A DNA stretch of 64,000 nucleotides from Sialis fuliginosa (lineage: Eukaryota > Arthropoda > Insecta > Megaloptera > Sialidae). The stretch lies in assembly GCA_961205875.1 (NCBI GenBank), contig OY540813.1:31157001-31221000 (forward strand). Direction: 5' to 3'. The position numbers were made by a program, and so were the translations under genes. Below the pieces are notes generated by a model, which ran no database searches, was not told the origin of the DNA, and saw nothing but the letters and a program-made list of their open reading frames with translations. This document shows positions 1-46,398 of the stretch, in pieces. Positions within the stretch are counted from its first letter, which is position 1. Every line of letters starts with the position of its first letter.

Positions 1-454
1 GAATTATTTTTGAAACGGTGCGCAGTAGAAAAAAATGTTTTAGGTACAAGTTATAAATAATATTATTATCTATAATTATGTTATATAATTTCTGCGGTAA
101 GATAAAAAAGTCTTGTGCCGACCAGGGCAATTTATTTTCCAAACTTCCACAGCGTTAAAGTGAATCCGCGTAAATGAAAGGATTACTCTATAAACATTTA
201 TTCATATTCTGCAATCTACGTATATAAATTTTCCACTTTTGAAGACAAATACCACTGATACATAATATACATATGGCTGATTCTCAAAAAAAATCTAAAT
301 TGTTGTCCTTTCTGATTTCTATAATACGAGATCGAAAATTAAAGTTAAGGAGATTCTCTTATGAAACTACATCACTAGGTGTACCAAATTGTATATTAAT
401 TTTATTTCAGTTATTATAAATTGTAAAAATATATTAAAATTTATACCTCAAAAA

Positions 455-873
455 TCATTCCCTCACTGTGTCCCAACCACCAAATTTAAATACATTTCTA
501 ATTTGTTTCGAAAAGTTTTCTAGAATGTGTTTAATAACTTATTATTTATTCATTTATAACAATATTCTCTATTTAAAAATGTACAACAGTAAGTAAAACA
601 CAAAAAGAAAAAAAACAGAAAATAAATTTACAAGTATGTCCTTAAAAAACGAATCATTCCCTCACAATTTATGTAACAGTGAAATTAGACCGTAATTTTA
701 AATCTATCTGAACGCAGTGTTATTGATTTTATAATTTGGCAATACTGACATTAAAAAATAAATATGGCAAAAGGGCTGAGTGTTGAAGTGTATTGTTGAA
801 ATTGTTTTAAAGTATTATTATCCAAATTTACATTTTCGCTCGTCATTCCCTCACAAAGTGATCATTCCCTCAC
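455..873. repeat. Four copies of TCATTCCCTCAC
   Basis: At 455-466, 654-665, 843-854 and 862-873, all in the same orientation. Between copies the sequence is AT-rich and not obviously repeated. Confidence 0.8.
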
Positions 874-1119
874 TAATAAACTAAGCTATCATATCCTCAC
901 TTCTGAGTTTTTGTTTTAACCCCCTTTAAAGTCAAAAATATTGGGGACCACTATAACCCTTCAGAAAATTACCCTATGTTTTATTATATTTACGAAAGAA
1001 ATTGTACCTACATTATTAAAAAAAAAAAAACCACAATATAACAAAATCATTTTTCTACTTTTTTTGAGAATCAGCCATATATCAACAGATACTTATTCAA
1101 ATACATTTACAATTAGCGA

Positions 1120-1245
1120 ACACGACGTCTGCTGTAGGCGTCGATGGCATAGACTACCACCCCCTGCTACCTTCCACCTCACATACCGGATATTCGTGCG
1201 TCCCTAGGCACGTTCCTGCGGGACTAGTAACAGCACGCGATGTGA
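1120..1245 (+). other. GC-richer stretch ending in a splice-donor-like site
   Basis: CGACGTCTGCTGTAGGCGTC.. through CAGCACGCGAT|GTGAGTAAGT. Higher GC and a near-consensus donor suggest a possible noncoding plus-strand exon. No protein homology and no downstream partner was found, so this is only a candidate. Confidence 0.2.
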
Positions 1246-1580
1246 GTAAGTTGCTTCTATGTAAACATTCACTTGTATTATGGGATTATCGTGTACGGGA
1301 GTATAAATATTCTCGTACACACGAAGAGATTGCATTGTTTTTTATGTTGGGGTTTTTTGTATAGGGGAGTGGTGAATGAACAGTTATGGAATGGTTTTAT
1401 CAAAAAGTAATAAGTTAATTTATTTCTTAATTTATGGGATAAAATGGTATATTATAATGAAATTTTGCATTTAATTAAAAAAAAATGCATCTGATATGAT
1501 AATCGAGTCATCATAAAAAAGAGATAGTTAAACATGAGTGTTAAATAGATAGATTATTGGTTAGGTTATAAGGTCATGGA

Positions 1581-2496
1581 GGCAAATAAGGCCCACCTTG
1601 ATTAAAAATGTTGTATTTCGGGTAATAAGTTATTTATATTAAAAAGGTTATATTAATGGTCAACTTTAGTTTATTATTAATCTAAAGAAGTATGAAAACT
1701 AACATTTCTTAAATGATTTTATCATTTTTAAGACATCTTAAAAAAAGTAACTTTGGGCCTTATTAAACTAGTGGTATAATAAGGCCACTTAACTAAATTA
1801 AACATTTTGAGATAATTATAACGTTATTTTGTATGGAAACAATGTTTAAATCGACATTTGGCGTAATGTTTACTTAATTACAGCTAATAAATAAACAATT
1901 AATAATGTTATTGTAACATTTATTTTTTATCCGTAATGTACCGATGCTGCATCCATAGCAGCTGCTAAACTCTCACCAGACCACGTTATTTCTTCGTTGT
2001 AGATGATTTTTTTTATAGATCTATTAGTAAATAAAAATGGCATACCAATCTAGAACAAAATATGTGATCATAAATTTGTGATAAATAATAAAAAGTCCAA
2101 TCTTAAATTTGGTGGACCTTATTATCCGTAAGGTACTACGATATACATATATATATATATTTTTTTTTATAAAACAAAAACTTAAAAACAATAAAAATCA
2201 ACTTTTTACCATAAACTTTAAGGATCGAACTATTACATGAACAAATAAGAAACATATGTATAATACATAAAAAAATTTAACAAAAATTAAGATTATTTGT
2301 TGGTTATTTTTATAAAATTGAGCGTTCGTCACCATCTCTCGCAACAAACTCAGAGGTACCGAAAAGATATCGCGGCGAGATACTAGTCGGTCGGTGTGTA
2401 TTTAGCTTTGTATAAGTACCTTCTATGTGTATATAAAAATCCAGAACGATCCAACTATTGCAAATATGTTTTTTTTTCACATGGGCCTTATTTGCC
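1581..2496. mobile_element. 916-bp TIR element (GGCAAATAAGGCCCA)
   Basis: Perfect 15-bp ends GGCAAATAAGGCCCA and TGGGCCTTATTTGCC. The word AATAAGGCC/GGCCTTATT recurs inside (1755-1790, with a variant near 2110). No coding frame. Confidence 0.65.
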
Positions 2497-2499
2497 ATA

Positions 2500-4000
2500 G
2501 TTTTTATCTTTTTGTTATTAAATTTTCAAAGAAAATTATTACATTGGATTTTTTTCATTTTTAATTATGTTTCAAACTCGACCAAATATAAATACATTTG
2601 TAATGGCGAGAGATTAATTTGTTTGTTGATTAACTATAGCAACATGCTATTTTTCCCATAAAATACAGCATAAACTTGAACTGTGTGTAGAAGATATACT
2701 AGAAAATAGTATGTGGTACATGGATAGTATGTATAACATCTCTGCCTAAGTAAATTTGTTCCTTTGCTTTGAATTTGAGACGAAGTTTCACGCTTACATA
2801 ATATATTATTTTTTTAATATAATGCTTATCATTAAAAAGTGCTTAAACCATAATGAAGTGATCATAAATGCTATAAGTCCTGTGCAAACAAATAATTTTT
2901 AATCAAAAGTCTAATAACCGAAATAGTTCTAACTAGGAAAAAAGTAATCTCTTTTTGTGGCGCCCCCTTTGTGGTGATGTCCTAGGCCGGTGTCTAGTGT
3001 GCCTTATTATAAATCCATCAATAACGATAGTACAGAATGCGCTGTCCATGATGTCTATTCCTTCAAACTTCAATATTTCGATGAAATAATTAAAAATTAC
3101 AATATTTCCACAAAATATGATTTATATGCCATCTAGTGGTTTCCTCTACGACTAACAATTATCGAAAATATTTGACCCCACGCACTTATACAACTTCAAT
3201 AACATACGTGATAAACTGTAGTATATCGTTAGACCACTGCATGGCGCCACATGTATGAGAATACATACCACATGAACATTGATATAGCTATTTGTAAAAT
3301 TAATTGATAAAATGAATAATTCATGATCATTATTTACAATAGATATGACAGGACTGCAAATATATTGTTTAGATGTTGTATTAATACAAACAATTAAATA
3401 AATATCTAGATTATCATCTAAGATATGCGAAATTTACAATATTCCAAAACTATTAAGTACTTGACTTGAGGCTTTCACGGTCACAGTTTGGAATAGGTAT
3501 GTCAAAAACGATTAACTTCACAAAAGCTAAACATTGGAGAAATTTTATAATCTTATAACCAGTAAAAAATTAATTGGAGTCATTTAGAAATGAAGTTATG
3601 ACAGATTTTGATTAAAAATCATGGGAATTAGCACATTTTTAAGGCGCGATCAGGGTGAAATTTTAGTAATGCAACGGTAACGAAATGCATTGCATGCAAC
3701 AATGCGAGCGCACCATATAAGGAAAACAACATCATGAAGTTAGGTTAGATAATAAATTTTTTTGTTATGATAGTCGGTACAATAGGTTTTTAGTTTTGCA
3801 TTTGCACGTAAATGCCACTATGCGAAAAAAGTATAATTTTTAACACGCATAGATATAGAACATGGACCGCGTATTCTGTATTAACATAAAAGGTCGATCC
3901 TGACTATCGAGCTGGTCTTGGTCCGGTCTCGCTCCAATCAAAATATAAATAAATAATAAACAATGAAATCATTCACACTATAGTAGACTTGTGTAGTTCA
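2500..4000. other. AT-rich, no gene seen
   Basis: Noncoding DNA with no element I can delimit. Confidence 0.6.
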
Positions 4001-4004
4001 CGAA

Positions 4005-4092
4005 CGAACTACATAGTTCAAAAGAGCGCTCCCTCACGAGAACTAGAGGAACTAGTTCGTATGCGCTCCGCTCTTTTAGTTCAATAGTTCCT
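4005..4092. repeat. Short palindromic 'GAACTAGTTC' repeat
   Basis: AGTTCACGAACGAACTACAT, AGAGCGCTCCCTCACGAGAA, GAACTAGTTCGTATGCGCTC. Related to 37260-37345. Confidence 0.5.
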
Positions 4093-4726
4093 GATACACC
4101 TCGGAATTTATTCTCCCTCGGTAATAATAGCTATCATTATTGACTCGTGGTATAATATACTATTATAGACCGAATTTTAATTGTAAAGATCAAGGAAACT
4201 GAAATTATATTTTTGATCCATTAGAAACATTACTTTCAATATTGTATGTATTAATTAATATTATAAAATATAAAGAATGTTTGTTTTTATCGCATTCTAT
4301 TACATATTTGATAAGATATAATGTGTTTTTCAGAAAAACAACTAATTATACTGATTAGATTCAATTACAATCACACTTTAATGTTTATTTTGTCAAATTA
4401 TAAAATTTTCATAATATAAACAAAATATGTACTAACTTTATTTATTTTCAAGGACAAAAATCTACGAAAAAAATAATTCAGGTAAAAAAAATCCTATTCA
4501 TAAAACGCACTTCATTCATCTAACCAACTAACCAATTCTGCGCACAATCCTCTAACAAAGAAACAAAAACCTGCACGTACCGTACCCCAAATAATAAAAA
4601 CACCTTAGCAATCCCTTTTGCCGAAATCTTTCACCCTAATAACCACTAACAATGGGTACACGAAGCCTTAACAATCGAAGAACTGGCAATTTTCAGAGAT
4701 CGCATTGGTTACTTGTTTAGACCGGC

Positions 4727-4740
4727 GTTGCCATGGTAAC
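4727..4740 (+). promoter_or_regulatory. RFX X-box-like site in a GC-rich island
   Basis: GTTGCCATGGTAAC is an almost perfect palindromic X-box (two half sites with a 2-bp spacer), the site bound by RFX factors, often at ciliary and neuronal genes. It stands at the edge of a GC-richer block (4725-4810) followed by a TCAGT initiator-like word near 4850. No exon can be tied to it. Confidence 0.45.
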
Positions 4741-4849
4741 CGGGACCATTAAAATCGTCTGCACGGCGACGGCAAAGATGCGTAACGAATGCGCGGAATC
4801 AACACAACAGTGCTGGGAGTAGTTGTAGTAGTCGATGCAGTATTATTCT

Positions 4850-7300
4850 GTCAGTTGCATGTGTTTTACTGTCAAGGATAGTCGTGCATTTTGTTTGTGT
4901 TATCAATATTCTAACTTATGTAATCACTGTTAAAATGTGCTGTGATTTTATTATGTTGGTATTACTGACAATTGTCTTCGATGACAATAAATTGATTTGA
5001 ACTTCATTGTTGTTCCAATTTAAAAAATAACAAAGGCAATTTGCACTACAGTACTAAAAATTTGTGGATATTTAAAATTTTAATAGAAAAACTAACTTAT
5101 AATTCATCAATAAGAAAGTGTTAGAAATAAACATGTGATAATTGATTGGACAATAACAAGCAACAAGCTGTAAATAAATTAATGAAATTGTGACTTTAAA
5201 TCCATATGAATAAATAATTTAACATCGATTATTTCTAATAACTGATACACGTAATTTTGTGATAGTGTAAAAAAAGTATATAGTTACTTTAATATGTAAT
5301 TAATGTTTACAAAACAAATATTGGATTAAAATGAAGCATGAAGAATTGCAAATTCATCAATGAACAATCGGTAATAGTTTAAATGCATAATCAATTATTA
5401 GAAATGTAACAGGTTTTAAACGAAGCTCTCTCTAAATAGGTCACATTGGTAACAAAATTATTACTTGGATTATTAATGGAGTTAAAAGCAGTAATGTGAA
5501 ATTTATCATGAATTATTGATCATGCATTGACATCAATAAAAAAGAATTGTTTTCATTCAAATATTAAATGATTGTTTCGAACTTCTGCATTGCAGTTATT
5601 TTGCTTTTTTACAATGGGGTTTTCTTTATAAATTACGAAATTATATTCGTGTGTTAATAAACTGTAATAGAATAAATTTACTTTGTGATACCTACTAGCT
5701 AGTTCATGGTATTGCAAAATCATAAACGGTTTAGCTTTGTAATTTGCAATCTTACAAAACCAATATAAAAACTAAAAACAGCACACGGTTATTGATAAAT
5801 TTACCACAAATCAAGGAGTTTTTAATAATATCAATTATAATGAACTTGATGCTGTAAAACAAACATTTTCAAAAAAACATTGTTTTTGAGTATTCCAAGA
5901 AATATAGATACAGAAGACAATTTCTACTGTATATCGATCATTGATCAATTTTTTATTTTTATTTTTTTCCCTTATCGTCAGCCGTGCAAAGGATTAAACA
6001 TATATATTTTTAGAAATCCCCCGCAGAGCTAATTTGGTATTTAATTGGTCTATAAACTAGGATGTATATATCAAAGGATTTTTAAACAAGGGGTTGGATC
6101 AACATCAAAATCAGAGTTCCTCAACCTGTTTGATAATAAATAAGTTAATTATATATTCATTTAAAACAAAAATTTACCATTACGTTCATGTTATAATCAA
6201 GCACCGTTAAAGAACTTTATTGTAAGTCACGCAATCTTCAGGAAGCTAATATGATAATTTTATAAATATCTGGATTTCGTTTGTTATAGTACCTACTATA
6301 TAATCAACGCTATTAAAATAATAAGAGTACGATATTCGGGTTTTCCTTAATGATTTATAATTTTGTCAGTAGGTACATTGTTTTCAATTTACAAGAAGTT
6401 CTTGAAAATTTAATTAAATAATAAAAAGTAGCCAATTCGATGTTTTATTATCCCACAATTTTACAAAATATTTTTTTATGATGTGAAATATTATTATCCG
6501 CTCTTATTCAATTGAAAATTGCGCCACAAAGCGTAGCAAGGGGAGGGGGGTTATTTTGTCTGCTGATAAAACGAAAAAATATTTTTAGAAAATAAAAATT
6601 TATAATATTCTCTCATTTCTCTCCTTACGATATTAATTGTAAGGCCGTTTTTCCACACACCGGCAAAACCAGTGCCGTTGCCGGTGAAGGCACCGGCCAT
6701 GGCTCTTTTTCCTAAAAATTATAAAATCAGATACTAGCACTGCTCTCTGATTATGGCGCCCTTGGCAACTGCCCCGATGCCAACCCGTTTCTACATCTCT
6801 GTGATGAAACGTTAACCGTAAAGATTAATAAACGCTTAAGTTCATATAAGAATTCGTCATGGAAATTCTACAGTTAACAATTGCTTAATTCAAAAATACT
6901 TATTTAAACATTATAAAATACATAAAAAATGTTATCAAGTATAGTATAGTGCATAACATATAAATAGGTTATACATACATAATGAAAATGTTATTGTTTG
7001 TTTAAGTAAAAATACAAATGTTTATTTATAAATAACGATTTATAAAACAATGTAGAGTGACATCACGATAAAAATATAAATAGGAAATATTATTATATCT
7101 GAAGTATTCAAACAGCATGTTATTGATCAGACAGTAATAATTCAAAAATAATCATTTTGTGGATAATCGAAACTTCATGGGAACCAATTATGTGATATCT
7201 ATACTATTCTATGAATATGGGAACTGCGGATAAAACGTCGCACCCAGAAAAACGCTATTTAAAAAAGTTTATATGTTGAAAACTATTTTGAATTGTCTTT
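4850..7300. other. AT-rich, no gene seen
   Basis: Noncoding. A small GC-rich patch at 6650-6790 (ACCGGCAAAACCAGTGCCG, GGTGAAGGCACCGGCC) may be an old transposon end; nothing else stands out. Confidence 0.6.
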
Positions 7301-7307
7301 GTTTAAT

Positions 7308-7682
7308 CAGGGCTTCGAACCGGAACTGAACCGAAAACCGGAAAAACCGTTATTTTTTGCCGGAACGAAAACCGGAACAGAACCGAAATAAAAATATCGG
7401 TTTTTACGGTTCAGTACATGTTAAAATACGCGCGTTGGCATGATCTTATTTCCCACTTCAATTGTCGTTCGGACTATCATACAAGTAGGTACCATAAAAT
7501 ATTCTAAATTATGGTAGAAAAATTTTTTTTAATACAAATAATTTTTTTGTTTTAATTAATCACTCGGAGCTGAACCAAAAACCGAAAAAACCGTTATTTT
7601 TTGCGGAACGAAAACCGGAACCGAACCGAAATATATTTTTTTACTCGAACCGGAACGAAAACAATAACGGTTCGAAGCCCTG
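7308..7682. mobile_element. hAT-type element (375 bp, AACCGGAAC arrays)
   Basis: Ends CAGGGCTTCGAACCGGAA and CGGTTCGAAGCCCTG. Flanks GTTTAAT / GTTTAAAT look like a slightly altered duplication. Subterminal arrays of ACCGAAAACCGG. A second copy lies at 18430. Confidence 0.85.
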
Positions 7683-7910
7683 GTTTAAATATGTATAAGA
7701 TGATATTATTTATTGAAGAATAAAGATTTTCATCTTTGATTTACGAATCAAAATTTAATGAAAAAAATTAGTTCTACTACATAAATCACAAAATATGAAT
7801 TTACCTATTTGAGCAAAAGTAACTTTTAATAATTTAAAATACCACAGGATTTTATTATTTAAAAAATATTGGATCATTGATAAACGAAAAAAATATGAAA
7901 CTATAGATAG

Positions 7911-8990
7911 GCGGCTAATGTGGCGCATTCAAATAGACCAAGAGCCAGTGGCTTGTTTCCATTGTTTATTTCAAAAGTCGTGAAAATGTAGGTACTAAAT
8001 CTTATATACCTGCTGAACAATAAACGTTAATTCTGGCAGCCCTTTGCGGCCGGGTTACACTTAAATTACAAAGAGGGTGAGAAATAAGACTTAATTTATC
8101 TATAGTAAAAGTCATGAAATTTCAGGTTACTTTCGATAGTGTTTTTTATTCATAAAAATTATTGCCAGAACATCCCCCCCCCACCTAACTGTCACCAGAA
8201 AGCTGTAAATGTTTATTTAAAAAAGTACCATTTTTGTTATTTCAAAAGTCTTGAAGTTTTAACAGAATAAATAAAAAATATCTAGGATAGGTAAAAAAGC
8301 CAGAACAAAATTCCATCACCAAATATCTACGAGAAGACAAAACGTTTCCACTTTAGTGCAATACACTTATATAGCGGCTTGCAGGTTAGAGAGAGAGAGA
8401 ACGTATGTGGAGAGTAAAACAAGCTAGATATATCAAGTTGAAGAAAAAAATTATTGTAAAAATAAAAACATTTATTTAATGTATCAAAAAATAAATGCGC
8501 ATATATAGAAATTATTTTCAAATATACAGGTGTTACAAAAAGTACCTACATTTTCACGACTTTTGAAATGAACAATGGAAATAAACCACTGGCTTTCCGT
8601 CTAAAACAAGTGTTGAAATACATATGTGATAACGAGGTATTTGTGATAGTTAATAATAATTATCCATGCCACCCCCATTACCTACATGTAATTTTTCATT
8701 TTTTATCTATCATAATTGTTAAATTAAATAAAACCCGTTTTAGGGGACATATAAACGTTATATAATTCATAACTATCAAATAATTAATTTAAAACTAGAT
8801 ATTTGTTATTATATTTTTTAGCATTTTTTATAAAAATAATCAAATGTGTTCGAAATTACAAAAGATAATGAATAAATAATAAATTTTCTATTAATTCATA
8901 AATAAAACAAAATTTACATACAAAATTTGGTTATGATCATTTTTATTCTACGAAAATCTGTAAAATCGAGTGCGCCACATTAGCCGAACT
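7911..8990. mobile_element. ~1.08-kb TIR element with inner inverted blocks
   Basis: GCGGCTAATGTGGCGCA on the left, TGCGCCACATTAGCCG on the right. The inner pair CCAGTGGCTTGTTTCCATTG / CAATGGAAATAAACCACTGG and TCGTGAAAATGTAGGTACT / its complement near 8545 is also inverted, so the element is composite or rearranged. No transposase. Confidence 0.7.
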
Positions 8991-9114
8991 GGAGGGCAAT
9001 AAATTAACAAAAAATATAAAACAAATACTGTCAAATTATTTATTTATTGAGTTATATTGCAAATATTTAAACTACGGAAAAAATTTTTTTTGCATGTTTT
9101 ATTTTTTATTTAAT

Positions 9115-9290
9115 AAACAAAGTCCACTGCCGCGTCTGTCTGTCTGTGCACGATTTTCTCAGTAACTACTGAACGGATTTTATTCCGGTTTTCACATTGT
9201 TTCACGAGTAAGATTAGGTATATAATTAGTAGATATTTTGTGTAAATTTCATCAAATCGGAAAAAACAACTGTTGGAGAGGTATACATAA
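9115..9290. repeat. Retroelement-like tail
   Basis: CGCGTCTGTCTGTCTGTGCA, then CAGTAACTACTGAACGGATT and ATCAAATCGGAAAAAACAAC: the usual phrase of insect non-LTR or SINE tails. Confidence 0.55.
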
Positions 9291-11034
9291 GATACAAAAT
9301 AAATTTTATAAATTAAAATCGTAGAACAAAGGATGTTAAGACAAAAACCGTGAATTTTATGTCAACAACAAGCTTGAAAATATACGTATAACATATGAAG
9401 AAACATTGGTAGAAGATTCAATCAACGTATCGCGATTTGCAGCTAATAATTATTATTATCAATTTAAACAATTTATTGGCTATGAAATTCCCATTATAAA
9501 ATAACTGTACGGATAATTGGATATTAAATCCTACATAAGAAGCTAAAAAAGATAAATTTTATTGATAGAATAAAATGTGTATTATATTATACATATTATT
9601 ATACTTATTATTTATCTTTGATGTAAAGAAATCGTGTCATGACATCGTGTCGATAACATTGCAGAATACTTTTATTTTTGTGTATCACTTTTTAAAGACC
9701 TAATATACTCAAAATCTAGAGCACGTTGATAAATAGTTTTAATTGGTTACTTTTCATAAATAATATTTAAGGGAAATAACCTGCTATTATTATCTATAAA
9801 AACTAAATGTTTTGGATGAAAGACGGGACTTTTTCTATGAGCGATATGAAGGTCATTTGAAAAATTGCAATTAGCAAATACAAGTTTTTATAACAAAAAT
9901 TAATAACTAATAAATATCAGAACATTTAAATATCGATTATGAATATGTAAATTTGAATAATATTATAATTATTAATTATTAGAGAATGAAAAAAATATAA
10001 GAAGTACCTGCATATTTACTATATACCTATATCATTTATTTATTTAATTTTATTTCAATATATTTACATATAATGATGTATTCAAAAGAGTAATTAAGAA
10101 ACTATATACAACCGGTAAATAAAAAAAAGTAAATACATCGATAACTATATTTTATTTAGGTATATTAACTATATTTTTCATTTTATAATCTATTTGGCAC
10201 TTGGCCTGTTTTCGGGTTTAAAAAATTATATTCTAAACATCATAATCAAAATAGTTAAAATCCTTTTATATATTTGGTCATACTACTTAAGTTGACGTAA
10301 TCGTAATTTTTATAAACATTTTATGTACATACATAATTATATAATATATTAAAGTATTAAAATTAATCTGGTTTTAATAAAGTAAATATTTATCTTTTAA
10401 AGAATAATACTAATATATATAATTTTTAATTAGGAGTTAATTAAATTGTTCTAGATGTTTACAAACAAGCTCATTAATGAATAGGTATGTTCATACTGAT
10501 AGTAGACATTTATTCGACCATTAAAAAATCTATAAAGTATTGTAATTATATACCTAATCGTTGGACACAAAAAACTGACTTAAATGCATCAATTTTGAAA
10601 CAACCAGTGAGTTAAAATACCTTATATAATCTTATACGAGTTTATTTTATTTTTTGCAGACAAAAATTAGGATTTTGTTGAATTGTAGACGGATGTTGAA
10701 TTTATATGCATTATTATTTACTTAAAATATAAGACTAGTTTTTTCATTTCCTGAATTATAACTATACATTATTTAAATTGATTTTTTATATGTATGTATT
10801 ATACATAATGTCTACTAACTTTATGTAACGATACTTTTAATGTTATAGTTTATTTTTCAATTTTTTTTTAATTTTTAATCCGTAGGTACTTCGGAATTTA
10901 AACATCTCAATATAATGGTAATAAAACTTCATAAGAAAAACTAATACATTGCCTTATCGTTTCCCAATCACAATAATAATTTCTTTCTTAAAAATGAATA
11001 AATTTTACTAAAATTTATACTAACAATAAATTTT
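9291..11034. other. AT-rich, no gene seen
   Basis: About 1.7 kb of very AT-rich DNA without recognisable repeats or reading frames. Confidence 0.6.
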
Positions 11035-11450
11035 CCTCCGTGTGGCCTTACTCCCCCCCCCCCTCCCTAAAGCCAGTAATGACGTCACACAAATTTCATG
11101 GGTTCTCCCCCACCTTTATCACAGGTTGTCACATTTGTGTGATCCCCCTTGTTGTGACGTCACATAAATTTCGAAACAATTATTAGGTACTCAAAATCAA
11201 CGAAAAAAAAAATTTTTTTTCATTGCTGTTTATATTATTTTTATTTATATGAAATTTTTCCATGCACGTTTGAAATTTTCCCAATAACTCTTCACCGGTC
11301 TCGAGTTACCAACAATATATTAATTTATTTTGTTTTGATTTTTTAGATGTGACGTCACGAAGCTTGTGACTCCTCCCCCTTTGTCACACCACATCACACT
11401 TTGTATCCCCCCCACCTTAACGTGTGAGATAAATTATGGATGGCCCCCTA
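11035..11450. repeat. TGACGTCA-containing dispersed repeat
   Basis: TGACGTCACACAAATTTCAT, TTGTGACGTCACATAAATTT and TGTGACGTCACGAAGCTTGT recur with C-rich runs (CTCCCCCCCCC). It resembles a common insect retroelement 3' region; a shorter related stretch is at 21640-21740. No coding frame. Confidence 0.5.
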
Positions 11451-12095
11451 AGTATGTCTTGCTTGATTCGATATAATTTTTTCAGTCATTCATCAAATCA
11501 CTCAAGACCGTCATCACACATTTTGAGACTCGTGGCGCAAAGAATGAGGCCCTATTGAAAAAAATTTTTTATTTAAAAAAAGAAAAATTATTAAAACATT
11601 ATCAATACTCAATACACATAAAAAATTATTTGGGCCAAGACAACCCTTGTTTCATACATATCGAAAATAATATTTTCTCTTGCTTTAAGTAACATTTTTT
11701 ATGCGTGTATAACTTTGTATTAAACATAAACGTAGAGCCAATAATAAAATTATATCAGTAAAATCCATTACATCTTGGATATTTAATAACAATGAAATTA
11801 TAATTAAGAGAAATTATACAAAACTGTTCTCTTTTACAAGTCCGGATAACGTTAATTTATTAATACCTACGCAGAAATAAAGCTTGTTTAACTTAATAAA
11901 TCATTTCGTTAAATTAAACGAACGTCTTGACAGTGGCGTGTAAGCAAATATGTATTTTAATACTTTTATGTATGTTATTTAAATAAACCGATTTTTAGAA
12001 ATATGTTGAAGGTTAGAGAATATTTATTAAAAAATATCGCGAGATCAAAGAATGATTGAGCTATTATTTTGACATTCAATTTATATCGTTTACAC

Positions 12096-12318: not shown

Positions 12319-12496
12319 GTTTACACAAATACATGTTTATGTTTTGTTAATATGGATTGTTCAGAAGCCAACGAGTCTAATTAGAAATTCGATAAATAAA
12401 TCTAATTGATACCTAAATTGTTTTCTGTTAGTCTGCTTAGATAAAAATTTCTACTCTAAAATTTGAGTAATGGTAACTACATTCTTTTGTCTACAA

Positions 12497-34220: not shown

Positions 34221-34972
34221 ACGAAATAGATTTATTATAGATTTTATTTAGTTCAATTTATTAAGTCCCTAATTATTCGAACGACTTTCTAAATTATTTC
34301 TACCTTTCGCCAAAATAATTATTTTAATGTTTTTAAAAGTCAACATTTTAAAATATATATTCGATCTATTTTTAAGACATTAATGTTAAAAACTATTTAT
34401 TTTGTCAGACTACGAGTCAAGTAACATAAAGTAAAGAACGTTCAAAACAAATATTGATCTTTCTAATTCACTGGAAACAGAAAACATTTCTAGAATAGAA
34501 AAATGTACATTAAAATATTTACTTACGCGCCTTTGTTACAATATTTCTAATACACATGCATGTTTTTTTAGAAATAAATTATTTAAATTATACCTACTTT
34601 TATTTATACGGGAATATGATTTTACATAGACTAATTTTTCTTAAGTGACCATCTGTCCATGCCTCTAACTAAATTTTTGATGTGACTTGTTTTTTTTTTT
34701 TTTTAATGTTACGCGTTCTACAATATCCTGAATTTCGTAGTGCATTTAAAAGAAAGCTTAAAGAAAAATATGTATCATTTATATAAAAATCTAAAACTAT
34801 TTCTTATGGCGGTTTTACACCAAAATAACAATACACAAACACGGTGTTTTTAAAATAATTCGTATTTTAAAATGTTGAGGTTTTTATGTAAAACGACCAT
34901 TAGAATTATAATTTTCAAATATTGTCACTAACTGACTTATTGACTTGACTTTTATTATGTAGCAGGGCCGTA

Positions 34973-35124
34973 ACTAGAGGCTCTGGGGCAGCAAGTGACC
35001 GAAAGGCCCTCACTATATGCAAAATATAAAAATTGAAGACCTTTTTTTCTCAATTTTGACAACCTCAATATGTTCGCTGCTGCAGAGGCCCCAGGACACT
35101 GCCTCGGTGGTAGTTACGGCCCTG
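34973..35124. mobile_element. Short hAT-type element (CAGGGCCGTAACTA)
   Basis: 152 bp. Ends CAGGGCCGTAACTAGAGG and GGTAGTTACGGCCCTG. TGTAG flanks both sides. Same family as 12497-12862. Confidence 0.85.
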
Positions 35125-35735
35125 TGTAGCTACTTAGCAACTCAATATACTTAAATATTATCAGTTGAAAGATAATAAGTTGGTTAACATACTTATAAAA
35201 TTAAAAAATATATTTTCGATTCTATTTTTAAAATAATGCGCTCTAGTTGATGACTAACAAATAAGAAAGGTAAAGTAAATAGTACATTTTATTCAAAGAC
35301 TTTATTTCCGCCGATTCTTAATGTTAATAAAACTCTTATGATTATGATGACCGAGACGAGATGTTCTAAAATGATTTCAAAATCTAAAGCAAACATTTAG
35401 AAAAAACCGAGTTTGGTTACAAGTTCTATAAACATCCAAGACATTGCCACTTCTTGAAAGAGCAACATCTGGAAGGCACCTCTGCACTGTATAATGTATA
35501 CACATATAAGTACATACATAAATACATGGGCGCACACATTGGAGTGTCCAACCTTACTTTAAAAGTATTTCTTTATTAAAATAAATACATATAATGTAGG
35601 TAGGTACATACGTATTTAAAATAATTATTAAAATTTAAAGAAGAAACCATTCGTTTTTTTTTAGTAAATATATTTAATTAAATACGATATCCCTCCTTGG
35701 AAAATGTTTTGTTTGCGCCCCTGTGTAGGTACATA

Positions 35736-36114
35736 CAGTGGCGTATTTACCATGGGGCTATGGGGGCCATGGCCTAGGGCGGCAGGCTGAGAGAGGCGGT
35801 AGATTTTTTTAGTTTCTTTTAGTTTAATATAATATATTTAAAAAAATAGGGAGATAAAAAATTAGTAACGCGACTAAAAAAAAAAAAGGTTTTCAAGGTT
35901 TTATTTACCTATTTTCCAAAAAATTTATTTAATAAAATTAGAAATTTTAATCTGCGTGACCAAAAAAAGTCATTAGTTTTTAATTTATATTATATTTTGT
36001 TTTTATTATTTGTAAAAATTATCACTTTTCAGTTCATATAGTAATTCTGACTTCTTTGAAAAGTAAATTATCTTTTCACTTGGTGGAGGGGCGGCACTTT
36101 ACGTAACGCCACTG
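35736..36114. mobile_element. hAT-type non-autonomous element (379 bp, exact TSD)
   Basis: Exact 8-bp duplication GGTACATA at 35728-35735 and 36115-36122. Ends CAGTGGCGTATTTACC and CGTAACGCCACTG. Internal GC-rich GGGGGCCATGGCCTAGGGCG. The 8-bp duplication and CAGTGGCG ends are hAT traits. Confidence 0.92.
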
Positions 36115-36122
36115 GGTACATA

Positions 36123-37255
36123 GTACATATCTATATTTTGTGCATCAATACACGTGGAGTTATTAAAAGAAGTTGCACATCGATCGAAGATAAATCAATA
36201 TAATGCGTTGGTTAATTATGATTCATTTGCGATAATATGAAAAACATTCAAAATAGACATCTCTGTGAATTCTGGTAATCAAGTGTGCGCGTGAATGTGT
36301 ATTAAAAATAAATATAAGTCAATTATAAAGTGTAATTGAAAACAACTCGTACTTTTCTTGGAAAGTATGAGGTTTTAAGATTTTGAATTTAAAAATAAAT
36401 AAATATACGTATACATAGATAAATATCTACCATGGGAGCCACGGGATTTTCTTATACGTAATCCTGACGTGATTCTTATTTTATTAAAATATATTTCTGA
36501 CAAACCAATAAAATAAGTAATTACTAAACCGGAAACTATTGTGAATTTTGGAATTTTCAAATTATTTTTGAAAAAAAAAAATGTTTTAGATAAAAACATT
36601 AAAAACTTTCGAGTATGTGATAATCGCGGTGGAAATCGATAGTGTCATCCCCTCAAAAATTAAAAAGTGCAAGCTTTTGTTCATGCCAATCTAATAATTT
36701 TTCGCGGAGATATAACTGTTTGAAAATATTTTTTTTTTGCTTTTATTTAATTATCCTTTAATGTTATTGAGGAATGTTTAATAAAACACCACTTTTACAG
36801 ACAATTTTTTCTCAATTTAATGTGGGCAAATTTAAAAAAAATCAATTAAAAAAATTAAAGATCCGAGCTTTAAAAATCGATTTTTTGATAAAATCGAATT
36901 GAGATAAGAAACCCTAAAATTAAATTATTAATTACTGTAGATTTGGACACCCCGTTTCAACCATTGCTTATATTACTATACCTACAATTAATAATGTTTG
37001 AAAATTTCCATATATATCAAGAGTTCGATTTAAAAAAAAAAGATTATTGCAAATATACATATAAAAATATCGATCTTGTCTATAAATTAATAACGAATTC
37101 AAAATTACAGCAGTTTGCATTTTTATAGTTTGATGAAAAAAATAGTAGTACAAAATTACTAATCAAACAATTTAATTATACATTAAAAATCCAACAATCA
37201 AATATATCTAAATCAATAAATTTTGTCATCGTATAGTTCGGAAAAAAATTCTATG
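36123..37255. other. AT-rich, no gene seen
   Basis: Several short open frames on both strands (36375-37153) are AT-rich and without homology; I take them as accidental. Confidence 0.6.
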
Positions 37256-37259
37256 AATT

Positions 37260-37345
37260 AAAAGAACTAGAAGAACGAACTAGTTCATTAAAGACCACTG
37301 AACTATAGGGAGCGCTCTCTGTCATGAACTAAAATGCCCAACTCT
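37260..37345. repeat. Short palindromic 'GAACTAGTTC' repeat
   Basis: GAACGAACTAGTTCATTAAA and GGGAGCGCTCTCTGTCATGA resemble the block at 4005-4092 (AGAGCGCTCCCTCACGAGAA, GAACTAGTTCG). Two degraded members of one short inverted-repeat family. Confidence 0.55.
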
Positions 37346-38022
37346 AGCTTACACATAAATATATATTTTTTAATCACGTAAAAAAACTTTTAAATAAACA
37401 TTACATGTTAGTGAACACATCATCTAACATACTTTATATTTTGTTCACTCTTAACCCTTGCACTGTATAAACAGTACGTCATCAGTACCTACATTTGGTT
37501 AGTATTTATAAAGACATTCCTCCAAAAGTACTTCTCGTAAGTGTGCACTGGTGCACGTGGCCAAGGGCGTCAATAACATAAGGGAATTCGTTTATTTATT
37601 TTAGTTTTCTTTAATCGATATCACAAGGTGTATACTGTATATGTTTATAATGATTTATTTTCGGATTTATGTTTAACTTTTTCGATTGAAAAAAACATTT
37701 TTTTTTATGTAAAATTTAAAAATGCAGTGTTCTTTCAAATTTTGTAATGTAATAATAATTAACGTATTAAAACCACTATCATTAACGCCTAAAACTAAAG
37801 AAGAAATAATCATACACAAATTTAAAAAAATTAAAATCTCTTCTTCAGCGTTTTTCGACGTTTCATCTCGAAAAAATTTATTCATTGAAAATTTTCATTA
37901 TATTTTATTAACAATAAATAGCAATATTACTGAATATTTATGTTTTTGGCAGTTAATATATTATCTTTTTTCACTGCATTTATAGTTTTCAAAATTCATA
38001 TACGTATGCGTGCGGGACAGTC

Positions 38023-38521
38023 CCGGATTTGAGTAGCCTGTCCCGTATCACAAATTGTCCCGGATTAGACATTTATAACATTATATTTTTACAAAATTTT
38101 ATTTAGAACGGGGGAAAAAAATGCTCATCTTAATTAGAGCTTTTTTTTAGAATATTGTTTACTTACAAAATAATTAAGAATTGAATTTCAATTTGATGAC
38201 TAAAAAAAAAGTGTGTATGTGGGGGGGGGAGGTGTCCCGCATCAGGGTTTTAGAATTCTGGTCACTTTATTTATGATAGTCAAAAAAATTATTAATTCAC
38301 GACAGTTGAACTTGATTGAGGCGCCTGAGATTACTACAACAATGAATCAGTGTGAATGGTGTGAGTTATCTCGAAAATTGATAACGATTTTACGTACCGC
38401 GATTTGCTTACAACACCTACCCACTAGTAATAATACTGCTTACATTGTCACCAGTCACAATCGCGTTGAACGGATGTTTTGTCTATTGCAGAAAATAATA
38501 TACCTAATACACCAGTGTTGA
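38023..38521. pseudogene. Degraded hAT element with possible transposase C-terminal relic
   Basis: GGGACAGTCCCGGATTTGAG and TTGTCCCGGATTAGAC resemble a hAT terminus. Downstream on the plus strand, frame 38213-38521 ends TSHNRVERMFCLLQKI, which resembles the hAT dimerisation motif (..SNAxVERxFSxM..). No start, catalytic core or zinc finger remains. Likely a relic. Confidence 0.4.
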
Positions 38522-39124
38522 TAATTCAAAATGGCGAAATAGTTCACTTGTGCAAAAATTTAATAAATGTTATTGTTGAACGTGTTCAAATAAAATAAGT
38601 TTGAATTTGTGCGATTGTTGAATTTGAATAATTTTAATTATTGGAGGTCAGTGCTTGTTTGAAAGTTTTCAAACAAAATATATATAAATTCGTTTGTAAT
38701 TGTTGCATTTATAGAACAGATTAAAACATTCCTGAAAAGAAATTTATGATTTTCGAAGAATTGCAATATGTGGTTGTAGTTGTTTTGAAATACCATTTAC
38801 GAATAGCGTCTCTTCCAGTAATTATTTTTTTGTAATTTTTTATATAACATTCTGCAATTGGGAGGCTGAAGAATCTCGAGGATACTATATTTTTAAATAT
38901 GTTTGATGAAAATACAATGAACTGAAACGTAAATTTTTAAGACATTAGTCATGAGGTTAATAAATTTCTTTATTTGTATTAGTAAATATTTTATACTATG
39001 AATATTATCAGAAATGTGTGAACTAATTAATTTTTCAGTTTGGTTTGTGATTCAGAAAAAAGTATCTTTGTTCTGTGGAAAAAGTAGGTTTGCATTACCG
39101 GATTTAATGTATGTATGTTTGCAT

Positions 39125-39250
39125 ACTATTACATTGACGTAGCTAGGGGTTGGCGAAACCGTTCCCCGCCTGGGGCGGACTTTCTACGGGGGCGCAAATT
39201 TAGTCAAAAGGGTGATAGTGACAGAAAATATAGCGGGTTGATTAGTAGTA
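39125..39250. mobile_element. hAT-type fragment
   Basis: TGACGTAGCTAGGGGTTGGCG, then CTGGGGCGGAC and GGGGGCGCAAATT. This resembles one end of the 'GGCGTA' hAT family (compare 35736). No second end was found; the piggyBac-type element lies just beyond. Confidence 0.5.
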
Positions 39251-39292
39251 TCACATACAAGAGGCGCAAAAAGTCACTCAATAGTTTCTTAA

Positions 39293-39871
39293 CCCTCCGT
39301 TAAGTGCGCGGCATACATGCGTAGACCACTCCTATAAAAACTGTATATTTTTCTTCGACTTTCCTGCAAATAGGCTAGGTAATTATGTCGGATGATGCAA
39401 TTTTATTCCAGAAATTGCAATAATTCGGCAAATATCTATATATTCTAAATATTTAAATATCTATTCTGAACTACATTTTTACCTAAATAAAAATATCCAA
39501 TTTTGATCGCCATTTTCATACATTTTCATTGAATTTTTTTGTATTTCTATAAATTAGTCATAATTAACATATATTTTGTTTACCACATTTTTATTTAGAT
39601 ATATTGTTTATTTTGTAAATTAATATAGAATTTGTGACAATAAAACGTTTAAAAATGATATTTAACTTTGTTTATTTTTCCGCAACAAAATATACAAAAA
39701 TTTCAATAAAAAATATGTGTTGTATACAAAAGTATACATCAATAAACATAATAATTGAACTCATTTGAAATAAAAATCAAATACAGCTATTATAGGCCCT
39801 ATTGAAAATGGTCTACGCATGTATACCGCGCGCCTAAACTCGCGACAGTAGTACGCGCGCCTAACGGAGGG
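39293..39871. mobile_element. piggyBac-type non-autonomous element (579 bp)
   Basis: TTAA at 39289-39292 and 39872-39875. Ends CCCTCCGTTAAGTGCGCG and CGCGCGCCTAACGGAGGG. Subterminal GTATACATGCGTAGACC-like blocks are also inverted. The interior is AT-rich and non-coding. Confidence 0.9.
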
Positions 39872-40487
39872 TTAAAGCTAGTTCTGTTTCATTTATGACG
39901 AATATTGATTGATAATTTTATACCATACGCAATATTGAGTAAACAGTATTTAAAAGTACATTTTTTATACAATTCTTTCTATATTTTCGTTATCGTTTAT
40001 TTGTTAAACTGATATCATTTCGTTACATACTGATATCTACAAAGTAAACAAAGAAATTATATATTGGATGAATTATTTTTCACTTTTTAGATAACAACAG
40101 CACACCTTAATCAGCAAATAAAATAATAATAATAATATTCTGCAATGAAGCATAATATTAAAAATCCAATTTCAAAATCAGTAGTGCCAGAAAATATATT
40201 TTTAATGTTAAAAATTGTTTTTTGTATAGGTACGAAAACGTATTTAAGATTACCGTCATTATTCGCAATTTCTTGGACATTTTATCGATGATGTCTTACA
40301 GCTTACGTTAACAATTACGTATAACAACTACTAACTACTATCAACCGCTTTTTTTTTGTTAAAAACTAAATATCTTTTTTTTATAATTATAACAAAAATT
40401 TTCTAAAATACGAGACATTTATGCATCCCAGTAACAGTGGGACAAAAAATACAAGACGTTTGGTCACACTAATTATATTAGACCCAA

Positions 40488-40873
40488 CTAACAAGGGAAC
40501 CTTTATTAAATATTTTTTTTGTGAAATATGATGTATTATACATATATTTGAATTACTACTGTATAATACAATTAAATATAGTAAATAGATGAAAAAATCT
40601 TAAAAAAGACTAGGGTGGGTGGGGGGTTGGGGCTGAACGGTTTCACATTTTCACATGAAAATTTTGTATTATAGAATTTTTTAAATCATCATTAGTTTCA
40701 GAGTTATTTGAAATACATGATTTTTTTTTAAATTTTCATAGGGGTATTTCACCCCATTAAACCGTTTTACTGCAGCTAAAATAATTTTTTTCTTACTACC
40801 CTTGACCCCCTCTAACGATATTCAAAATTTGAATTCGATACGATTTTATCACTTGAAAAGGTTCCCTTGTTAG
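40488..40873. mobile_element. 386-bp TIR element (CTAACAAGGGAACC)
   Basis: Perfect 14-bp terminal inverted repeats CTAACAAGGGAACC and GGTTCCCTTGTTAG. The interior carries a GGGTGGGTGGGG tract. No reading frame. Confidence 0.8.
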
Positions 40874-41183
40874 AATGGTTGATTTACATAATTTTTAATT
40901 ATGATTTCATTTAACATTTATATGCACATAGACATTTTAAAAATATGAGACACATATAGTTCATCAAAGAGAATTAAAGAAAATAATAGCTTTACTTTAC
41001 TACAATACATTACTCACGTATAATAAATTTATTCATAGATTACCTTGACCTTCAGTTTCGCTAATGTACAAAATCTATTTAAAAAAAGTGTAACGCTCTT
41101 AATTCATTAAATAAATATTATTTAAATATATGTAGTATTTATATAGACGTACATTTTCTGACATTTTTATTTTATTCATTGTC

Positions 41184-41421
41184 AAACGAATCATAATATA
41201 AAATTTAAATTTAATTTAACTGTAGACTGCAGAACTAGACTGATTATTCAAAACCGCAAATACACCAAAGGCGAACTTTTTATTACGGGTGGTGTTATTA
41301 ATATTTTGAATATAGGTTTCGTTTTGATTTTATTAATTTTTAAACGAATCAAAATATAAAATTTAAATTTAATTTAACTGTAGACTGCAGAACTAGACTA
41401 GATTATTCAAAACAGCAAATA
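41184..41421. repeat. Direct duplication, ~79-bp unit, two copies
   Basis: 41184-41262 and 41342-41421 share AAATTTAATTTAACTGTAGA and CTGCAGAACTAGACT at very high identity, about 80 bp apart. A local tandem or gap duplication. Confidence 0.85.
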
Positions 41422-41869
41422 GAAGAAGAAACATTACTTTATGTGAATTCAATTCAGCTTCAAATTAAAACATTTGAATTTTAACATTAAATTAAAACTA
41501 TACATTTTATGATAGAAATTGAATGTCGTTCTGAAAATAAACATATACGTTGGTTAGTGTGTCTGTTTGCTGCCTGTCGGTCTGTCTAGTCCAGAGGTAG
41601 AAAAATATTTTTAACTATATTTTTAACTGAAGGACGGATTAAATATTATAACAGTAACATCGGACTAATATAAGAAACAAACGTACCAAATGACAATTTT
41701 TAACCAGCCATTTTCTAGTCTAGACTAACTTGCACTAAAAAAAATCTCTTTACTGATTTTTAGAGGAAATGTAAATATCCTTCTAAATTGGACACTTTTC
41801 AATTATAGTCAACACTTTTCTTTTCGCTAACGTAATAAAAAAATTATGTATATATTTTTCAAAAATACG

Positions 41870-42279
41870 TGGCGATGAAAGGGTAAAAAATGTTTGATGA
41901 AATATGTATTATATATTTGAATTACTATTGAAAACACAATAAAATTGAGTAAATAGAAAAAAAATCTTTAAAAATCATGGGGTGGGTGGGAGGTGGGGGT
42001 GAACGGTTTCACGTTTTCGAATTTCGACTGTTGCCATTCGAAAGAGTATAAAATCATGAAAATTTTGTACTTTAGATTTTTTTATACCTTCATTAGTTTC
42101 AGAGTTATTTGAAAAATACGATTATTTTGCACATTTTCATAGGAGTATTTCACTCCCTTAAACCGATTTATCGCAGCTAAAATATTTTTTTCTTACTACC
42201 CTTGACCCTCTCTAACTATATGTATGTACACAATTTGAATTTGATACGATTTTATCACTTGTAAAGGTTCCCTTGTAAG
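41870..42279. mobile_element. Second copy of the CTAACAAGGGAACC element
   Basis: It shares the interior GGTGGGTGGG..GGTGAACGGTTTCAC and the right end GGTTCCCTTGTAAG with the copy at 40488-40873, in the same orientation. The left end is not clear. It ends about 280 bp before the first visible exon of the membrane protein gene. Confidence 0.75.
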
Positions 42280-42556
42280 AGTAAACTCTTAAAGGGTATA
42301 ATATTTTGAGTACAGGTTTCGTTATGATTTTATGACCGAATTATAAAGATCAAAACAAAAAGAATCAATATGTCATATAAATTATAAATAATTCAATTTA
42401 CTTATAGATCTAGCATAATATTACACTGTTCTCTGAATAATGATAACTTTTGTGGTAAATTGTAATTTCTGGAAAATTATATTTTTTAGAATTAAATAAA
42501 TTACTATTAAAATAAAACTATTTATTGTTATCAATCTAATTATTTATTTGTTACAG

Positions 42557-42631
42557 ATAAAACTCATCAATGAAGATGTGAGGGAAATAATTATTAACTT
42601 CAATGGTACTTCTGTATAACTGACGGAAACA
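42557..42631 (+). other. 5' UTR part of exon before the membrane protein start
   Basis: A clean acceptor (TTATTTGTTACAG) ends at 42556. The transcript therefore probably has at least one further noncoding 5' exon upstream that I cannot locate. In-frame stops precede the ATG at 42632. Confidence 0.45.
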
Positions 42632-44212
42632 ATGCATAAGAAACGTTTTTACACCTGGTTGAACTGCAAGCCACTCTTTGTAATATTATTAATGTTATGC
42701 GTTAGTTCAAATGCTATACTTAACTCTGCGATGAAGTTATGCGACAACCAGCTTTGCCAATGTGGTTACGAAACAGTCACTTGTGAATGCAGCAAAGATG
42801 TGCAGGTAATTTTCTAGTATTCAAATTATTAATAACCAGTTGAATTAAATTATTTGTATTTAAATATATAAATTAAATTAAACTTAAACAATACGTAGAG
42901 AATTAAAATATAAATTAATTTTTTGTACTTGTATTTTCAGACCTTGACAATGAACTGTGAAACGTTAGAAAAATCTGGAATATCAAACATAACTGTCCAC
43001 AATTGCCACACTGTAATATTTCCAAAACATTCAATTAAAGAAATACGCAGTTTACGCAACCTCTATATTCACAATGTCCGTGACCTACGACTAGAAGAAT
43101 CAGCATTTGAATGGGACTACATTACATTGCCTTCTGGACTGGAACTTCCCAAACTTTCAATCAGAATACAAGACACAACCACTTTACAATTAAGCAACTA
43201 TTGTTTCAAGGGAAGAATAAAAGAAATCGCACTTGTTAACGTTCATGTAAAAATGATACGTGCATTTGCGTTTTCAAGTTTACACGGTACTCAATCGATT
43301 GTGTTGAAAGACTCAATTATTGATAATATTCAAATACAAGGATTTAAAAAATTCTCTACAGAAGTATTTATGCTCATAAACACAACGTTTAAAGGTACAA
43401 TAACTGGTAGAGCTTTCTCAGATATAGAAGTAACAAAAGTATTTAGAATAACTAAAGGATGCAACTTTGATACTTTACGACCAAGCGCGATGATGATCAA
43501 TAATCCAATCAACACAGAAATATTAGATTCTACTTTTAATGTTTTGAATGGTGAATCATTCAAAATAGTTGTTCTAGGAAACGTGCTCTTCAGAAATAAT
43601 GTTTTCAATGATGTTCATGTGGGTGCATTTTCAAGTATAGCTTTAGATAAACGGGTGTTAAATGGAATAGGACGTTCTGATATGACATTCAGCAATAACA
43701 CTGTAATAAATTTCCGTGAAAATTCATTAAACTTTAATACATCTAGTTTTAATGTAAAATTCTACAATTTAAAATTGAACACAACGTGTTCGTGTGAAAA
43801 CATTACAAATTGGGAAAAACTATTGAAAGAAGTGGATTTAAAGCAAATTCAATGCTATGTTAAAAAATCTAAGTATTATTACGTTTTAAGTACAGCTGAA
43901 GAATTTAAAAGTGTATCGTGTAACGCCAAAGCAAAAGTGTTACAAACATTCGTCATCATTATAACAGTTCTTGTCATAATTGCTGCAGTAGCTACAGTGT
44001 TTATTATATACTATTGTAGAAGAAGGGACAACAATAATCAAAAAGAGTGGATCAACAATGCATCACCTATTTTGGCAAGGAAAACTCGAGAACCGAATAC
44101 GAATACCGGGAATGGAAAAGTACCGATGATTGTTCCTGATGGTAGAACTTACAGAGAAACAGAACTTCACGTGGTGTTTGAAAAAGCTGAATTGTTAACT
44201 ACTGAGCTATAA
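42632..44212 (+). CDS. Predicted single-pass membrane protein with LRR/beta-solenoid-like ectodomain (481 aa, 2 coding exons)
   Basis: Exon A is 42632-42805 (58 codons), intron 42806-42940 (CAG|GTAATT .. TTTTCAG|ACC), exon B 42941-44212. Layout: signal peptide (LFVILLMLCVSSNA, residues ~15-30); a Cys cluster of LRR-N-cap type (KLCDNQLCQCGYETVTCECS); about 300 residues of irregular leucine/isoleucine-rich turns (LRNLYIHNVRDLRLEESAF, IALVNVHVKMIRAFAFSSL, GNVLFRNNVFNDVHVGAFSS) that look like degenerate LRR or right-handed solenoid repeats; a C-cap-like part (CSCENITNWEKLLKEV..C..C); one transmembrane helix (residues ~394-416, FVIIITVLVIIAAVATVFII) followed by YYCRRR; and a ~65-residue cytoplasmic tail. 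I do not recognise the family name. A receptor or adhesion role is inference only. Opposite in strand to MYCBP2. Confidence 0.85.
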
Positions 44213-44362
44213 CAAAATATTATTTATACAATATAGAAAAAAGTCTAAATATGCCTCAGTATTAATTAAGATAGCTATTTGTACAAATATAAGGTTGTGA
44301 TTTTGTTCACAATATTAAACTCATTTAATGCACAAATTCATACTGAATGCTTTTTCAATAAA
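44213..44362 (+). terminator. 3' UTR and polyadenylation signal of the membrane protein gene
   Basis: AT-rich sequence after the TAA stop. The first AATAAA is at 44357-44362. A second AATAAA lies further on at about 44774, before an A-run. Which one is used cannot be told. Confidence 0.5.
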
Positions 44363-45050
44363 AATTAAGTTTGAATGTATACTTATTTTATAAAAATACT
44401 AGTTTACATTATGTGCCATATAAATTTCATATTTTTTTTATTCGTATTTGTGAATCAGTATTTTGTGTTAATCATTGTGAATTAAATAATATAAATATCT
44501 AGTCTTTAAAATATCGTATAAAAAAATGTATAACATCAACCAAAGAAACCACATTAATTTCATTCAAACAATAGTAATGTGATACTTTTAATATCACTTA
44601 ATCGAAACTGTTGAAATAACTTTGTTTATATGACTGCATGTATAATATAATGTAAAAAGAGTTCCAATCATACTGTCTTCTTTATTTATATAAGCCATTG
44701 TAGTTGTTGTGTTTATAAAAACTGTGATATTGGTTTGTAAGCTAATAATAAGTTGTCATTTTCAGTTGGCTAAATAAATTAAAAAAAAAAATCGTTTTAC
44801 TTATAATTAATATTATCGACCTAATATTCATAAGTATGCTTAACTCGAGGTTATTAAACTATATAGGTTGTCTCGTAAGTAAGCATATGGGTGTGGGAAA
44901 TAAGCGGGGGGAGTGCATGCCGTCTTATGTTAAATTGAAAATTTGAATTAATAGTTAATAATGAGTAGTTTCCATAAATTTTGACAACTGACTACGTCAC
45001 TAGACATCAACTCAATTACATAACCACCTAGTATCAGTCATGATGATTTA

Positions 45051-45991
45051 TTAAAAAGTACCTAACATAGGAAATTTTAGGTAAAGTTTTGGTACTCACA
45101 GGATTTGTTACAAATATAGTTTAGAATAATACCCTAGGTTTGCTTCGATTTTGATTGTCCGCATTATGGGTAAATCATGGTTCAATTGCAAAATTCTTCA
45201 GATTTTCTGATTTTTGCTAAATAGCGGTCTAAATAAATATTATATAAAAAAAGTTTCAAATAAAAATTGTTCACTATAAAATTCCCTATAACCTCCTTTT
45301 TGAAATTTTTTTTTTAAATCTTTGTTTATCCGCTACGCTAAAAAAATGGCTGAAAATACGCTATTTGTAAGTTGTAATAACTAAGTTGAACGTTTTTTTA
45401 AGTTGATACCCCAGGAAATTGAATATTTTGTAGTACAGAAAATTCACTGCAAATTTGGACCTGTTTTTGTTTTATTAAATTGTTAATAATGAAATTATGC
45501 TTGTATTTGATTAACAATAAAAGTCTTTGGGAACACATACGAACAATTGTTCAGAAATAAAGATTCTACAAAAAAAAATCAAAGCATGATTATTAACAAT
45601 TTAAAAATGTTCTGTACTGCAAAATGTTTATTTTCCAGGGGTATCAACTTAAAAAACGTTAAGCTTTATTAGTTATTTCAACTTACAAATAGCGTATTTT
45701 CAGCCATTTTTTTAGCGTAGCGGATAAACAAAGATTTAAAAAAAAAATTTCAAAAAGGAGGTTATAGGGAATTTTATAGTGAACAATTTTTATTTGAAAC
45801 TTTTTTTATTTAGACCGCTATTTAGCAAAAATCAGAAAATCTGAAGAATTTTGCAATTGAACCATGATTTACCCATAATGCGGACAATCAAAATCGAAGC
45901 AAACCCAGGGTATTATTCTAAACTATATTTGTAACAAATCCTGTGAGTACCAAAACTTTACCTAAAATTTCCTATGTTAGGTACTTTTTAA
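45051..45991. mobile_element. 941-bp foldback element
   Basis: Ends TTAAAAAGTACCTAACATAG and its exact complement. Arms about 385-390 bp (45051-45442 and 45609-45991), nearly identical, with a loop of about 166 bp. No reading frame. It lies between the plus-strand membrane protein gene and MYCBP2 exon 27, so within MYCBP2 intron 27 if that gene is intact. Confidence 0.9.
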
Positions 45992-46064
45992 CCTAGACAG
46001 CTTGGATTAAATAGGAAAAAAGTATTTTGCACTTCTTATCATCGGTCACTGTGACTGCGCACAT

Positions 46065-46145
46065 GCTTTTTTGACGTTCCTCAGTAAACCGGCATATGTC
46101 GAGAAACGCGTACAGTTGTAATATATACGAGATATTAAATTATTA
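46065..46145. repeat. Possible Penelope-like element relic
   Basis: CGAGAAACGCGTACAGTTGT, then an AT-rich run of TAATA type, resembles the ribozyme-region ends of Penelope-like retroelements of arthropods. Short and degraded; a weak call. Confidence 0.25.
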
Positions 46146-46253
46146 TTATTTTCTTAATAATAACCAACAGATGATTTTACAGGAGAGTTAGAAATCAGAG
46201 AACAAATTACAGTAAGTTATTAATTAAAAAAAGATTGTAACAAATGCACTTAC

Positions 46254-46398
46254 CTATAAGGCAATGCTCCGTCTAAAGCTTGCATGACTGTCGGAGGACT
46301 CGCCAACGCAAGACCTTTTGAAAACAGCTGAGTATGTTCCTTGACAATATTCTGAGCGATTATTTCACACATGCTGCTATCTCGATCCAAATCTTCAT
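46254..46398 (-). CDS. hiw: MYCBP2 exon 27 (last in window)
   Basis: Residues ~2210-2257. It ends KGLALASPPTVMQALDGALP, matching human KGLALSHSPTILEALEGNLP. Strong donor AG|GTAAGTGC in phase 2. The family continues with a segment around SNEQSFLDDF; I did not find it on the minus strand to the left. Confidence 0.95.

Follow-up and report, generated by a model that had tools for sequence, protein, structure and literature searches.

A very long intron in a probably intact MYCBP2 gene of Sialis fuliginosa

The PHR ubiquitin ligases, a family that includes MYCBP2, highwire and RPM-1, carry RCC1-like repeats in their N-terminal part. The gene described here, a large one for a nerve-cell ubiquitin ligase, resembles these ligases in having two PHR domains followed by filamin-like, RING and tandem-cysteine parts. 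It differs in that exons 27 and 28 of an otherwise compact gene are separated by a 108-kb intron, an arrangement seen in one genome.

By the account given in PMC3786989, nested genes make up about 6% of Drosophila genes, and 2mit, a transmembrane LRR gene, lies on the opposite strand in the 11th intron of tim2. The Sialis locus is similar in that a larger gene harbors, in one of its introns and on the opposite strand, a putative gene for an LRR-like membrane protein. In contrast, the host gene here is MYCBP2, the intron holds at least two putative nested genes, and no kinship to 2MIT is implied. Our literature search on nested genes within a highwire/hiw intron found no paper. The arrangement is ordinary in kind, opposite-strand nested genes being already well described, and striking in size. 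Recursive splice sites are described as occurring in most fly introns longer than 40 kb (PMC6110457). The giant MYCBP2 intron shares this length, but has, by its sequence, no excess of ratchet sites (see below).

The stretch of DNA that was analysed, referred to here as the window, is 64,000 nucleotides long (C5:31157001-31221000) and comes from a genome of 392 Mb in 20 contigs. MYCBP2/highwire runs on its minus strand. We conclude that the window very probably contains the 5' half of an intact MYCBP2 gene, connected by one giant intron to a 3' half outside the window. Features are listed in Table 1.

Table 1. Positions of the features discussed, in window or contig (C5) coordinates.
Feature	Position	Strand	Basis
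MYCBP2 5' half, 28 predicted exons with two PHR domains (PF08005)	window 46254..62927	-	gene model and profile search
PHR copies	C5:31210269-31211470 and 31207859-31208477	-	PF08005 profile search of genome
Exon 27 (count of the original prediction), ending ...ALDGALPY plus 2 nt	window 46254..46398 = C5:31203254-31203398	-	sequence and gene model
Giant-intron donor, TAG/GTAAGT, phase 2	window 46248..46256	-	sequence; scored
Giant intron, first 46,253 bp	window 1..46253	-	sequence and gene model
Putative gene B, last exon: LRR-like extracellular part, transmembrane-like segment, tail, stop	window 42941-44212	+	sequence reading
Dispersed repeat element, interrupted	window 14542-14622 and 15278-15910	.	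genome match pattern
Telomere repeats	C5:1-3000 and C5:35434596-35437595		motif count

The two halves of MYCBP2 and their junction

The last base of exon 27 is at window position 46254 (C5:31203254), where the donor reads TATAG/GTAAGT. As the original prediction held, this is a strong phase-2 donor; its score of 11.1 bits exceeds the median of 8.3 across the donors of the gene model. The prediction that no next exon would be found on the minus strand in the window also held up, since exon 28 starts at C5:31095114, on the same chromosome and strand and 61,886 bp past the window's left edge. This exon is collinear and encodes the SNEQSFLDDF-like segment that had been named as the one to look for inside the window. 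Exon 28 is preceded by a pyrimidine-rich acceptor, TTTTTCTTTTTCATTCCAG, which scores 7.5 bits, under the gene's median of 9.4. The first base of exon 28 completes the split codon AG/T, and the phases match. The exon opens with S-AQSNERQFLRDL, giving the protein sequence ALDGALPY-S-AQSNERQFLRDLVRG and the spliced junction ALDGALPYSAQSNERQFLRDL. Aligned with a human MYCBP2 sequence not drawn from a database, the junction region is 51% identical over 215 residues with three gap positions, none of them at the junction, which counts as support rather than as a database match. Mainly because the alignment is ungapped there, we think that no constitutive exon has been skipped inside the window. The giant intron may contain an alternative cassette exon; gene prediction on its minus strand reported no exon at a threshold of 45 bits, which misses most single exons (only 9 of the 62 model exons score that high and 53 fall below).

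The far end of the protein provides an independent test that the two halves belong to the same gene. The C-terminal 258 amino acids match the human MYCBP2 ligase structure (PDB 5o6c) with 444 bits and an E value of 2.2e-132, residues 7-258 of the 258 pairing with 4-263 of 5o6c. Both the RING and the tandem-cysteine (RCR) ligase are present, and the protein ends in ...GVCRNAHTF. No solved structure was found that spans the exon 27/28 junction, all 18 matches there being confined to the filamin part. On the 5' side, four of the eight genome-wide PF08005 matches sit on the minus strand of C5 and form, exon by exon, the two PHR copies.

The 3' half was reached through a genome-wide filamin search with 51 matches, the last of which, at 22.5 bits and an E value of 0.058, was the one wanted. 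It lies some 62 kb past the window's left edge, at C5:31094521-31094673 on the minus strand, and such a weak match was taken as a lead because contig and strand agreed. The minus-strand frames of C5:30997001-31157000 include the RING and further C-terminal MYCBP2 parts. A search with ANAPC10/DOC (PF03256) did not serve as a route to the 3' half; the two matches in the genome are both on C11 and none is on C5.

The original prediction also listed filamin-like, DOC and RING parts as following exon 27, of which the filamin-like and RING parts were found. Once spliced, the two exons that come directly behind the intron reach 28.9 bits with PF00630 (cut-off 26.9), placing a filamin-like repeat after the PHR part; one exon alone stays below the cut-off, at 22.5 bits in the genome search and 22.9 bits in the Pfam scan. 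Behind the filamin part is an SH3-like match (PF08239, 30.7 bits, cut-off 27). The DOC part is less clear: the candidate segment matches no Pfam family at E <= 0.01, and we tentatively call it DOC-like by resemblance. Searched against the 392-Mb genome, the RING exon gives a single match at E <= 0.001, so no second 3' half is seen. We are confident that MYCBP2/highwire is a whole, single gene in this genome, as judged from these matches.

The giant intron measures 108,139 bp (C5:31095115-31203253), roughly 33-fold the length of the predicted intron that ranks second. The other 60 predicted introns range from 56 to 3,290 bp. This range is set by the 27 upstream of the giant one, in agreement with the earlier statement that they are at most 3.3 kb. 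The 3' half is modelled as 34 exons, from exon 28 to a stop at C5:31072374, with introns of 57-2,085 bp, and contains the filamin-like, RING and tandem-cysteine parts. All gene models were produced by a home-made predictor for which this same locus served as training data. The model has 28 exons in the window, compared with 27 in the original count, two of the 28 being very short and doubtful. Doubtful model exons are those of 9 nt and 30 nt in the 5' half and the one at C5:31089290-31089544, with some uncertainty also over the first coding exon. Exon and intron counts are thus approximate, but the size contrast of the giant intron is firm.

One gene, two genes or a broken assembly

The simplest reading is that exon 27 would be spliced to exon 28, 108,139 bp downstream and the first of the 34 predicted 3' exons. 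The pre-mRNA would presumably be transcribed through the whole intron and then spliced as usual, and we infer both a continuous transcript and splicing across the 108 kb. One of about 61 introns would then be giant and would host at least two putative opposite-strand genes together with dispersed repeats. Of the options that the original prediction had left standing, a giant intron is the one favored here by a collinear, phase-compatible exon on the same strand.

The intron interrupts the protein near its middle: the model has about 4,880 residues, of which 2,252 precede the intron. Between the two halves there are, in addition, other putative genes. Both are what one might expect if the gene had been split into two transcription units, one ending in the giant intron and the other starting before the filamin exon. 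However, both splice sites are intact and phase-compatible: the donor is above the gene's median and the acceptor below it. In addition, exon 28 opens with a split codon directly behind the acceptor, and thus does not look like a natural first exon. A two-transcript split is not needed to explain the data, and we consider it highly improbable. An assembly or inversion break, with the halves not truly arranged as they appear, is if anything a shade less probable still. The size of the intron relative to all others could be read as a sign of such a break. In contrast, the halves are on one 35.4-Mb contig, on the same strand and in order, and the 224 kb read around the locus is free of Ns, so that this option is set aside on order, strand and phase. 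Strictly, a mis-join that kept all three would still be compatible with the data.

The contig opens with CCTAA repeats (440 motifs within 3 kb) and closes with TTAGG repeats (215 motifs within 3 kb). CCTAA/TTAGG is a common insect telomere motif, and its presence at both ends makes C5 look complete end to end, a mark of assembly quality that nonetheless falls short of proving the join. Three of four other contig starts that were read open in the same repeat, and the fourth, that of C1, reads N.

If the ligase gene is whole, as we conclude, the window alone is no basis for reporting a truncated MYCBP2. The locus is also an annotation trap, in that a 108-kb intron with genes on the opposite strand can lead gene callers to split MYCBP2 in two.

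Contents of the giant intron

Four plus-strand open frames were found in the intron, at C5:31097713-31098108, 31145586-31145978, 31147056-31148492 and 31199914-31201209. The first has a signal-peptide-like start and a cysteine-bearing segment. The last two, as read from the sequence, each combine a single hydrophobic, transmembrane-like stretch with a tail and a stop; with two such frames there would be at least two putative genes, A and B. In gene A, the first exon, at C5:31097722, would be signal-peptide-like and the last frame would end at 31148492, both within the intron, with uncertain middle exons. The open frame of gene B covers window 42914-44209 (stop to 44212) on the plus strand and encodes 432 amino acids. 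Its putative last exon is preceded by TGTATTTTCAG, and a search for its first exon found none. A joined plus-strand prediction fuses A and B through many tiny exons and is untrustworthy between the frames named above. We suspect that these nested frames belong to genes that are expressed.

Putatively, A and B encode single-pass, LRR-like membrane proteins. A middle exon of gene A matches LRR_5 at 19.9 bits, below the cut-off of 27.7, and the last exons of both genes match no LRR family in Pfam. Gene B has five matches in the PDB, the best to a chain named G-protein coupled receptor (E 0.00094) and the other four to LRR chains of LGR5 (E about 0.1). The two genes do not appear to be copies of each other, as their last exons have no significant similarity (E 0.17). 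Each last exon matches only itself in a genome search at E <= 0.01.

Hosting nested genes could be a reason for the length of the intron. If the nesting turns out to be conserved, the locus would make a case for studying why genes stay in introns. One could go further and speculate that the intron of more than 100 kb is kept in this lineage as a regulatory host for fast-evolving, neuron-expressed membrane-receptor genes, the transcription of which would oppose and tune MYCBP2, and a long transcription delay or antisense interference would set ligase dose or truncation. We regard this as a very long shot.

Recursive splicing was considered and dropped as a sequence-supported reading, because the number and score of ratchet sites (an acceptor joined to a donor) were not above chance in 60 simulated sequences. 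The best sense-strand site scores 22.7 bits, a value equalled in 9 of 60 simulated sequences (15%). Four sense-strand sites of at least 18 bits occur in the 108 kb, and at least four occurred in 23 of the 60 simulations (38%). A 75-kb flank has three sites of at least 18 bits on each strand.

Repeats contribute to the intron, but the suggestion that it had been swollen by transposons holds only in part. Repeats are present, and putative genes lie inside as well. By self-comparison within 224 kb, the repeated share is 22.6% in the intron and 40.1% in the downstream flank; it is 11.7% in the 3' exon part and 19.5% in the 5' exon part. Genome-wide, repeats would make up at least these shares. A search against the genome covered a 10-kb piece of the intron (window 10001-20000) and gave 20,898 first-look places, 39 of which were scored. 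The best matches among these 39 are 89-94% identical and fall at window 14614-15912. They outline the interrupted element of Table 1 and a second, palindromic element (approximately 14617-15283) that aligns to the same copies on either strand (93% and 79%) and apparently sits inside the first. Matches to the elements at window 14542-15910 were listed on at least 13 of the 20 contigs. No intact transposon frame was seen by eye among intron frames of at least 90 amino acids on the minus strand and 120 on the plus strand, three intron frames having also been scanned with Pfam. At the gathering threshold, Rfam matched nothing in the window.

Several other repeats lie in and around the gene. Apart from the giant one, the largest MYCBP2 intron (3,290 bp) contains an inverted repeat pair, window 47121-47790 and 48892-49559, whose arms are 92.6% alike over an alignment of 680 bases. 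A repeat roughly 600 bp long occurs in four copies that are 89-94% alike (C5:31103091-31103708, 31073245-31073857, 31053381-31054005 and 31006765-31007374), one of them inside the giant intron and another inside an intron close to the MYCBP2 3' end. Downstream of MYCBP2, the minus strand has frames that read as reverse-transcriptase-like, at C5:31019382-31021359 and 31067902-31068639. The first of these is a pair of overlapping frames that is also RNase H-like, and all are probably decayed retroelements.
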